A program made the translations under genes and the position numbers. The notes below the pieces were generated by a model. It made no database searches, was not told the origin of the DNA, and worked only from the letters and a program-made list of their open reading frames with translations. From an uncultured Pelagibacteraceae bacterium (GTDB taxonomy: Bacteria; Pseudomonadota; Alphaproteobacteria; Pelagibacterales; Pelagibacteraceae): DNA of 64,000 bases. The first letter of the stretch is position 1. Each line of letters begins with the position of its first letter. The stretch is from the NCBI GenBank assembly GCA_902571525.1, contig CACGCL010000001.1, forward strand, positions 1-64,000, read 5' to 3'. Of this stretch, positions 61,017 through 64,000 are shown piece after piece.

Positions 61017-61937
61017 TTATTCGAAATTAATGAAATTATTCGAAAAATTCTCACTATCAAAAATTTGAAGATCATTTTCTTTTTCACCGAAACCCAAAGC
61101 AATAATTGGTAGCTTAAATTTTTTAGAAACAGCAATTAAAATCCCGCCTTTTGCGGTCCCGTCAAGTTTAGTCATAACTAATCCTGTAATTGGTATTATC
61201 TTATTAAATTCCTCGACTTGATTTATCGCGTTTTGTCCAGATATTGCATCTAAAACTAATATTACTTCTTGGGGTGCCTTTTCATCAATCTTTTTTATTA
61301 CATTTCCAATCTTCTTGAATTCATCCATCAAATTCTTTTTATTTTGTAATCTTCCTGCAGTATCAATTAAAGTAACATCAATTTTATTATTTTGTGCAAA
61401 TTCCATGGCTTTATAGGCCACTGAAGCAGGATCACTACCTGGATCAGACTTAATAATCTTACAATTTATTTTTTTTGACCAGCTCTCTAACTGATCAATC
61501 GCAGCAGCTCTAAATGTATCACAAGCTGCCAAAATTACTTCATTATGATTTGATTGATAAAGTTTTGACATTTTAGCAATAGTTGTTGTTTTACCAACAC
61601 CATTTACCCCAGCTATAAGAATTGCCTTTCTTTCCTTAATTTTTTCAAAAAATTTTTTCTTTTCTAAAGGTTTCATTAAAGAATTTAAATAATTTTTAAT
61701 AATATTCTGAATTTCTATAAGTTCATTTTTGCTTGGATCGATTTTTCGGTTAGAAATTACTTCTCTAATTTCAGAGGAAGCTTTTAGCCCAACATCTGAT
61801 TGAATTAAAAATTCCTCAATTTTTTCTAATTCTTTGTCACCAATTTCTTTATTTATTATGATTTCTTTGATACCTTTAGAAAAATTTGATGTAGTTTTTT
61901 TTAAACCATCTTTAAATTTTTTAAAAATATTCATCAT
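61017..61937 (-). CDS. ftsY: Signal recognition particle receptor FtsY
   Basis: AGVNGVGKTTTIAKMSKLY, AACDTFRAAAIDQLESW, LIDTAGRLQNKKNLM, TKLDGTAKGG. Confidence 0.97.
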   Translation of the reverse strand: MMNIFKKFKDGLKKTTSNFSKGIKEIIINKEIGDKELEKIEEFLIQSDVGLKASSEIREVISNRKIDPSKNELIEIQNIIKNYLNSLMKPLEKKKFFEKIKERKAILIAGVNGVGKTTTIAKMSKLYQSNHNEVILAACDTFRAAAIDQLESWSKKINCKIIKSDPGSDPASVAYKAMEFAQNNKIDVTLIDTAGRLQNKKNLMDEFKKIGNVIKKIDEKAPQEVILVLDAISGQNAINQVEEFNKIIPITGLVMTKLDGTAKGGILIAVSKKFKLPIIALGFGEKENDLQIFDSENFSNNFINFE

Positions 61938-62746
61938 AAATCTAATCGAATTTTTTCTATATCAGATACATTTCCTTCCATAAGAATGTTTCCATTAGGA
62001 TCCCTATTTATTTTGATTTTTCCTAATTTAAATTCAATTTCAGTCGGATAATTTGAAATTTTATTTATTTCACCAGCTATTGCTGTGGCGCATGCTGCTG
62101 TACCACAAGCTTTAGTTAAACCCGCTCCTCTTTCCCAATGTAAAACTTTAAAATAATTGTCATTAATTTTTTTTGCAAAAGTAACATTTACTTTTTCAGG
62201 AAATAAAGGATTATTTTCAATTTTAGGTCCTATATCTTTTATCTTAATTTTATCTAAATCTTCAGTAAAAAAAATGATGTGAGGATTTCCAACATTTATA
62301 GCTGTCCCTGAAAGATCCAAATTATCAACTTTTATTTCAATATTTTTGGTATCTATTTCTTTTAATAAAGGAATTTCTCTCCAATTGGTTTTGGGGATTC
62401 CTATATTAGTTTGTATGTTGTTATTGTTAAGAATTTTAGATTTTAAGATACCGTTCACTGTTTCAAATATCATTTCACTTTTAGAGTTCTCTTTTGATAA
62501 AAGACTTGCCACACACCTTGTGCCATTACCACACGCTCCTGAGCTGGAACCATCTGAGTTTTTAAAAATTAAAAAAGCATCAACTTTTTCACTTTTTTTA
62601 ACCAATATTAGCTGATCGCAACCAATTTTTTTTCTGTCACAAATATTTTTGATTTGCGATTGACTTAATTCAAATTGACTGTTTCTTTGATCAATAATGA
62701 CAAAGTCATTTCCTAAACCATCCATTTTATATGCTTTAAAATCCAT
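61934..62746 (-). CDS. dapF: Diaminopimelate epimerase
   Basis: KMDGLGNDFVIID, NSDGSSSGACGNGTRCVA, GAGLTKACGTAACAT. Confidence 0.97.
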   Translation of the reverse strand: MDFKAYKMDGLGNDFVIIDQRNSQFELSQSQIKNICDRKKIGCDQLILVKKSEKVDAFLIFKNSDGSSSGACGNGTRCVASLLSKENSKSEMIFETVNGILKSKILNNNNIQTNIGIPKTNWREIPLLKEIDTKNIEIKVDNLDLSGTAINVGNPHIIFFTEDLDKIKIKDIGPKIENNPLFPEKVNVTFAKKINDNYFKVLHWERGAGLTKACGTAACATAIAGEINKISNYPTEIEFKLGKIKINRDPNGNILMEGNVSDIEKIRLDL

Positions 62747-62805
62747 ATATTTATACTTAACTTATTTATTGACTTTTTGAACCTCTATTATAGTTTCTGT
62801 GACTT

Positions 62806-62894
62806 CCGCAAAAAACAGCATTTTGCGGTGTCTTTGGAAACAAAGAGATCGACACCAGTCAGCGAGGGTTCGCCCACTGGTGCGATTATTGCTG
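62806..62894 (+). ncRNA. Candidate structured RNA/5' leader of ffh, three stem-loops
   Basis: CCGCAAAA/TTTTGCGG; GGTGTC[TTTG-GAAA-CAAA]GACACC; CACCAGT-CA-GCGA-GGGT-TCGC-CC-ACTGGTG; unusually GC-rich for this genome. Confidence 0.75.
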
Positions 62895-62903
62895 GATTGA
62901 AAT

Positions 62904-64000
62904 ATGTTTGAAAATTTAACAAATAAATTCGAGGGAATACTCGATAAATTTAAAAAATCACCATCACTTGATGAAAATCAGGTTGATGAAGGATTGAGAT
63001 TAATAAGACAAGCTTTATTAGAGGCAGATGTATCATTAAGTGTTGTTAAAGAGTTTGTTAATAATGTTAAGCCTAAAGTTTTAGGTAAAGAAATTTTAAG
63101 ATCTACAGCCCCAGGCCAGATGGTTGTAAAGATTGTAAATGATGAACTTGTAAATTTCTTAGGCGACAAGAATCAGGAAATTAACTTAAAGTCCAATCCT
63201 CCAATTTCAATAATGATGGTTGGATTACAGGGGTCTGGCAAAACAACAAGTACAGCAAAGTTGTCTAAATTTTTAGAAAAAAATAATAAAAAGAAAATTA
63301 TGATGGCTAGTTTGGATATTTATCGTCCTGCTGCTCAAGACCAATTAAAGGTACTTGGTGAACAAAATAACATTCAAACACTTCCAATAATTGAAGGTCA
63401 AACACCAGCTGATATTTGTAGAAGAGCTTTAACAGCTGCAAATCTTAACGGTTCAGATGTTATTATTTTTGATACTGCTGGTAGGACTCAAATTGATCTG
63501 CAGATGATGAGTGAAATAAAACAAATAGAAGAGGTCATCAAACCAACCGAAACACTTTTAGTTGCAGACTCACTAACTGGTCAAGTAGCTGCTAATGTGG
63601 CCAAAGAATTTGGAAATACAGTAAAACTTACAGGAATAATTCTTACTAGAGTAGATGGAGATGGAAGAGGTGGTGCTGCACTTAGTATGAAGCATGTTGC
63701 TAATGTGCCAATCAAATTTTTAGGAATAGGTGAAAAAATTGAAAATTTTGAGATTTTTCATCCTGACAGAATTGCAAATAGAATACTTGGTATGGGAGAT
63801 ATTGTTTCTCTAGTTGAGAAAGCATCACAAGATATTGATGAAGAAAAATTAAAAGAAGCAGAAGAAAATTTAAAAAAAGGACAATTTTCATTAGAGGACT
63901 ACCTTAAGCAGTTAAGACAAATGAAAAAAATGGGTGGAATTGAGGGAGTAATGTCTTTTTTACCAGGTGTATCAAAATTGAAATCTCAAATGGACCAAGC
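62904..64000 (+). CDS. ffh: Signal recognition particle protein Ffh, truncated at window end
   Basis: Hand translation MFENLTNKFEGILDKFKKSPSLDENQVDEGLRLIRQALLEADVS...MMVGLQGSGKTTSTAKLSKF...DIYRPAAQDQL...IIFDTAGRTQ; no stop inside window. Confidence 0.97.
   Translation, partial: MFENLTNKFEGILDKFKKSPSLDENQVDEGLRLIRQALLEADVSLSVVKEFVNNVKPKVLGKEILRSTAPGQMVVKIVNDELVNFLGDKNQEINLKSNPPISIMMVGLQGSGKTTSTAKLSKFLEKNNKKKIMMASLDIYRPAAQDQLKVLGEQNNIQTLPIIEGQTPADICRRALTAANLNGSDVIIFDTAGRTQIDLQMMSEIKQIEEVIKPTETLLVADSLTGQVAANVAKEFGNTVKLTGIILTRVDGDGRGGAALSMKHVANVPIKFLGIGEKIENFEIFHPDRIANRILGMGDIVSLVEKASQDIDEEKLKEAEENLKKGQFSLEDYLKQLRQMKKMGGIEGVMSFLPGVSKLKSQMDQ

Follow-up and report, generated by a model that had tools for sequence, protein, structure and literature searches.

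The ffh motif was described in 2009 by Meyer et al. from the gap between dapF and ffh of 'Candidatus Pelagibacter ubique' (PMC2704228). It was represented by more than 600 metagenomic examples, drawn as a single bulged hairpin with covariation, and considered a possible regulator of ffh. The authors cited reads of the motif in marine metatranscriptomes, found it unlike the part of 4.5S RNA to which Ffh binds, and reported that it is missing from some orders (PMC2704228). The motif is kept in Rfam as RF01793, where it has no assigned function and a name suggestive of protein export. The dapF-ffh gap of Sinorhizobium meliloti carries Sm5, which was detected by microarray and has a predicted sigma-70 promoter and a Rho-independent terminator around 108 nt apart (PMC2573895). 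SmelC778, an RNA of 115 nt identified by deep sequencing, matches Sm5 (PMC2873474). An RNA of the ffh leader was reported in Bartonella (PMC7717549) and a transcript of RF01793 in Mesorhizobium (PMC5596092). Structured 5' leaders are also known from ribosomal-protein (r-protein) operons (L1, S15, L20, L19, and others). For the trmD operon (rpsP, rimM, trmD, rplS), a rare case among r-protein operons, a 2024 review states that no information on its regulation exists (PMC10931766).

The RNA upstream of ffh and its locus

We analyzed a stretch of 64,000 nt from the genome of an uncultured Pelagibacteraceae bacterium (contig CACGCL010000001.1, positions 1 to 64,000), hereafter called the window. 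The features discussed below are the following:

61934..62746, minus strand: dapF, an open reading frame, divergent neighbor of ffh
62747-62903, between dapF (minus) and ffh (plus): the dapF/ffh gap, site of all three hairpins
62769..62774, plus strand: TTGACT, resembling a -35 element; the -10 element is presumably in the TATAGTTT stretch (62789-62796)
62806..62828, plus strand: hairpin H1, CCGCAAAA/TTTTGCGG (arms 62806-62813/62821-62828), close to where the transcript is inferred to begin
62826..62851, plus strand: hairpin H2, basal helix CGGU (62826-62829)/AUCG (62848-62851), inner stem TCTTTG (62831-62836)/CAAAGA (62841-62846), loop GAAA
62838..62890, plus strand: match to RF01793 (ffh), full model 1-52, by cmscan
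62853..62882, plus strand: hairpin H3, stem 62853-62859/62876-62882, inner stem 62862-62865/62870-62873
62883..62896, plus strand: conserved T-rich tail containing TTG(C/T)TGG, its distance from H3 being constant; conservation stops here (112 loci)
62904..64000, plus strand: ffh, an open reading frame running past the end of the window, first gene of ffh-rpsP-trmD-rplS-leuC

The product of ffh matches TIGR00959 (569.9 bits), and the identities of S16 and L19 among the downstream products come from Pfam. On the minus strand, divergent from ffh, ftsY (61017-61937) and dapF (61934-62746) overlap by 4 nt, and both SRP GTPase genes (ftsY and ffh) thus lie close together around a single gap.

The RNA before ffh is a member of the already known family RF01793, with a score of 58.8 bits (gathering score of 35; E-value of 1.3e-8 across the whole window). 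It had been presented in the initial annotation as undescribed, a claim that falls with this clear match to a family published from the same gap. The remark that it is no common riboswitch agrees with our scans, since no Rfam riboswitch family matched the window at the gathering score and none matched locally at E ≤ 10. The element adjoins ffh, but the SRP RNA (RF00169) of the source genome is at contig C14:5136-5234, away from the ffh leader, where RF00169 has no match. The letters GUCAG, which we take to be common to the leader and to the 5' strand of the Ffh-binding helix of SRP RNA, are a lead only. We found no tRNA or tmRNA in the leader, nor an ATG for a leader peptide between the presumed transcript start and ffh. 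In SAR11, the RNA is almost the entire 5' leader of the ffh-rpsP-trmD-rplS operon.

RF01793 was found above the cut-off, in one copy, in 128 of the 147 genomes of the family of the window, and at E ≤ 0.001 in 112 of 389 genomes. With a broader three-helix model (R2, threshold of E ≤ 0.001), 121 of 194 genomes of alphaproteobacteria were positive for the RNA; these 194 overlap with the 389 but differ from them. The reported absence of the motif from some orders may partly reflect the sensitivity of the searches.

Structure, promoter, and tail of the leader

The RNA strand of positions 62790-62910 folds at -41.3 kcal/mol, far better than expected by chance (z-score of -3.83, none of 200 shuffles being as stable). 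Together with the covariation of the helices, this upholds the view that the 5' leader of ffh holds a structured RNA under selection. H1 and H3 are present exactly as first drawn, in coordinates and sequence. To compare the helices across SAR11, we aligned 53 distinct leaders, in which counts of pairing and of double changes are not corrected for kinship. H1 is paired in 91.7% of the cells, with double changes at two pairs, and has a counterpart, TTCCGGAAAG..CTTTCCGG, in many other alphaproteobacteria. H3 is paired in 100% of the cells.

H2 had to be redrawn. The inner stem of the initial annotation is real and longer than stated (TCTTTG/CAAAGA); all six of its pairs show double changes and 99.4% of its cells are paired in the 53 leaders. 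The proposed lower stem, GGTGTC/GACACC, does not stand: it uses bases of H3 (62853-62856), and at two of its pairs 15 and 20 of the 53 sequences, respectively, have bases that do not pair. Because this lower stem and H3 use the same bases, the best single-sequence fold is without the H2 first proposed. We rejected GGTGTC/GACACC as the base of H2 in favor of CGGU/AUCG, which RNAalifold proposed unguided. The redrawn H2 is paired in 99.4% of the cells and has double changes at 7 of 10 pairs. H2 and H3 taken together reach 99.7%, with 9 double-changed pairs, when versions slid along the alignment reach at most 45.5%. A hairpin abutting H3 occurs in 38/38 SAR11 loci, in 45/56 other distinct loci, and in most loci of a family without detectable SRP (see next section). 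Its mean energy is -11.3 kcal/mol in SAR11 and -10.6 kcal/mol in the others, against -2.1 and -5.2 for shuffles. Covariation shows H2 and H3 to be two abutting hairpins. In the SRP-less family the basal pairs of H2 change jointly (CGGUC/GAUCG, CAGUCC/GGAUUG, CGGUUC/GAAUCG).

The basal strand of H2 overlaps the 3' strand of H1, and base 62826 of the window pairs both with 62808 (H1) and with 62851 (H2). In 14 SAR11 sequences, uncorrected for kinship, both pairs shift from G-C/C-G to A-U/U-A. This joint change suggests that the H1 and H2 pairings are both kept and may be in competition. Positions 62808, 62826, and 62851 co-vary (G-C-G to A-U-A), with one base common to both hairpins, and the leader L072 has G-U-G at these positions, a possible intermediate. 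H1 and H2 do not overlap in the SRP-less family.

H3 is the best conserved element. Its 11 pairs are all standard in 72/72 distinct sequences, taken from SAR11, other alphaproteobacteria, and the SRP-less family, and most of them show several pair types. Within the stem, a C.C mismatch (62860 with 62875) is invariant in the 72 sequences and is followed by a variable position X.Y (62861 with 62874), which is A.C in 45 sequences, C-G in 7, A.A in 7, G.U in 5, U-A in 4, and of other types in 4. From its sequence conservation, the invariant mismatch looks like a candidate protein contact. The RNA is the one described by Meyer et al., with the same core hairpin (H3), the same gap, and the conserved cytosines. 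In contrast with the published motif, the bulge shrinks to the C.C mismatch and one variable position, and two helices 5' of H3 and a T-rich tail are added; H1 and H2 are conserved yet lie outside the Rfam structure. Two further pairings were tried and discarded. A basal extension of H3 (GAUCG/CGAUU), suggested by the single-sequence fold, is paired in just 78.9% of the SAR11 cells with scant covariation. A pairing between the H1 loop and the tail was dropped by eye, as it occurs in some SAR11 sequences and not in others: the complementarity of CAGC (62816-62819) to GCTG (62891-62894) in the window is shared by some relatives and lacking from most SAR11 genera.

Of 125 loci, 121 have TTGAC 5' of H3; the median distance is 85 nt in SAR11, 87 nt in other alphaproteobacteria, and 78 nt in the SRP-less family. 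This distance is steady, and therefore promoter and RNA are conserved as one unit. A simple consensus promoter scan of the window did not call the TTGACT element. On the other side of H3, the tail ends across the 112 loci in TT(T/G)G(G), after which conservation stops. At least five T in eight positions are found in 41-49% of the loci and in 0-17% of background windows, and a consensus terminator scan of the window did not call H3 as a terminator. The terminator-like character of this sequence is thus suggestive and not uniform across loci. The start codon lies 18 to more than 120 nt from H3. Since this spacing is so variable, direct blocking of the ribosome site is not a general mechanism. 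In two related genomes (L047 and L052), H3 and ffh are separated by a long inverted repeat rich in GC, CACTCCCCC..GGGGGAGTG.

Genomic company of the RNA

The gene directly 3' of the RNA is ffh in nearly all loci, and the exceptions are upstream of rpsP. The latter gene is on the same strand within around 4 kb in 60 of the 61 motif-bearing genomes, the remaining one being a contig break. The other side is less constant: dapF adjoins the RNA in SAR11 and in the SRP-less family, and in just 10 of 57 other loci. As an independent check, we took 40 loci found with R2 in genomes that the earlier RF01793 list did not include; the gene immediately downstream is ffh at 38 of them and rpsP at the other 2.

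The SRP-less family comprises 18 small-genome alphaproteobacteria (family f39: G184, G370, G438, G501, G290, and G530-G542; loci L126-L139), where RF01793 sits between dapF and rpsP. The RNA is above the cut-off in 14 of the 18, directly upstream of rpsP, and the match to S16 begins 33-40 nt further on. SRP54-domain proteins (Ffh, FtsY) above the cut-off were found in 0/18 of these genomes and SRP RNA at E ≤ 1 in 0/18, 6 of the 18 being at least 90% complete; both were present in five control genomes searched alongside. Two other genomes have the RNA at rpsP. In G220 it precedes rpsP-rimM-trmD, and a full-length ffh of 52.7% identity sits on a different contig, around 14 nt behind an unrelated gene and without the RNA. 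In G203 (0.9 Mb, called 100% complete; L188, L219) it precedes rpsP-rimM, and no SRP54-domain protein was found above the cut-off. The scores of the RNA in G203 and G220 are weak (27.6 and 27.9 bits), and these hits are credible partly through their position.

The RNA hence remains at rpsP in three lineages without an adjacent ffh. Among the around 170 loci examined, none is away from ffh or rpsP, one contig end aside. We assign the RNA to the rpsP operon: in genomes that have lost ffh or carry it elsewhere, the RNA is still found at rpsP, which suggests that its partner is the rpsP portion of the operon, not ffh. Compared with the published motif, suspected to regulate ffh, the distribution is wider and the partner is rpsP instead of the SRP. 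The element itself was already known, and the link to the SRP assumed for it is probably wrong. We did not find this reassignment in the literature searched.

Proposed function and alternatives

We favor, with moderate confidence, the view that the RNA acts in cis as the leader of the rpsP-trmD-rplS operon, which usually has ffh as an insertion, and that an r-protein (bS16 or bL19) probably exerts feedback through it. A more specific version, which we put forward tentatively, is that RF01793 is misnamed and that, in Alphaproteobacteria, it serves the rpsP-(rimM)-trmD-rplS operon as feedback leader, with bS16 or bL19 bound at the hairpin with the C.C mismatch and ffh usually a passenger between leader and rpsP. 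The transcript would begin just before H1, from the conserved promoter. An excess of the operon's products, bS16 first and bL19 second, would then lower expression via H2-H3; bS16 is the favored candidate, as its gene, rpsP, is the one that remains adjacent to the RNA. Feedback could cause the transcript to be terminated early, or processed, more often at the U-rich tail 3' of H3, which would leave a short RNA as seen in rhizobia. H1 and H2, sharing the strand CGG, would compete at their bases and may form a switch.

As in known leaders of r-protein operons, a structured 5' leader is associated with r-protein genes (rpsP, rplS), and it is 5' of the r-protein operon even where other genes are removed. 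It differs from them in that no Rfam r-protein leader family matched in the scan of the window, and r-protein binding is here putative. Such leaders often, but not always, mimic rRNA. A narrow SAR11-based model gave no credible sense-strand hit on the one SAR11 rRNA operon covered by the comparison (16S was found in one of the four genomes searched). The best hits in the search for mimicry of rRNA or SRP RNA with this model were antisense or weak, and a pattern scan for an rRNA-like site gave just two unconvincing hits. If the proposal is true, RF01793 would be the missing regulator of an r-protein operon with no known regulation. Whether the leader regulates the trmD operon in Alphaproteobacteria could be tested with one reporter and the two proteins in purified form; relatives that retain the RNA but lack the SRP offer a natural control.

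A promoter that keeps its distance to H3, together with a gene that does not, is better explained by an effect on transcription or on the stability of the RNA than by one on translation start. This pattern speaks for a leader lacking a specific protein ligand, i.e., a 5' stabilizer, an antitermination element contacting RNA polymerase, or a fixed attenuator setting the level of the operon. We regard this as unlikely, since the invariant C.C mismatch and the conserved core of H3 suggest a specific contact, though possibly one with RNA polymerase.

The rhizobial data bear on another alternative, an independent trans-acting small RNA whose gene is upstream by chance, with ffh or rpsP transcribed by read-through. 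Sm5/SmelC778 is a transcript from the dapF-ffh gap toward ffh, with a sigma-70 promoter, around 110-115 nt, and an annotated Rho-independent terminator. We infer from position and strand that it is the RNA of RF01793; it is known as a small RNA candidate. It is apparently classed as trans-encoded, which counts against a cis-acting leader. The independent small RNA entertained in the initial annotation thus has a discrete counterpart of around 115 nt in Sinorhizobium, which could equally be a terminated or processed leader. The expression reported in Bartonella and Mesorhizobium, the metatranscriptome reads cited by Meyer et al., and the T-rich tail are also in line with a small RNA. Yet the confinement of the RNA to ffh or rpsP while its neighbors on the other side vary, and the fact that conservation peaks in a base-paired hairpin bearing a mismatch and not in a single-stranded seed, make this improbable.

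Control specific to the SRP, in which Ffh or the balance between Ffh and 4.5S RNA would act on its own leader, as held in the initial annotation and thought possible by Meyer et al. (PMC2704228), is very improbable despite the position directly upstream of ffh in nearly all loci, because the RNA neither occurs solely with the SRP nor follows ffh, being retained at rpsP in lineages without detectable Ffh, FtsY, and SRP RNA and where ffh is elsewhere, and because Meyer et al. noted no likeness to the Ffh-binding part of 4.5S RNA (PMC2704228).

Apart from the function of the RNA, the genomes of the SRP-less family are around 1.3-1.4 Mb, and a loss of the SRP pathway in genomes of this size would be notable in its own right. 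G203, which belongs to another family, possibly represents a second, independent loss, as judged on SRP54-domain proteins.
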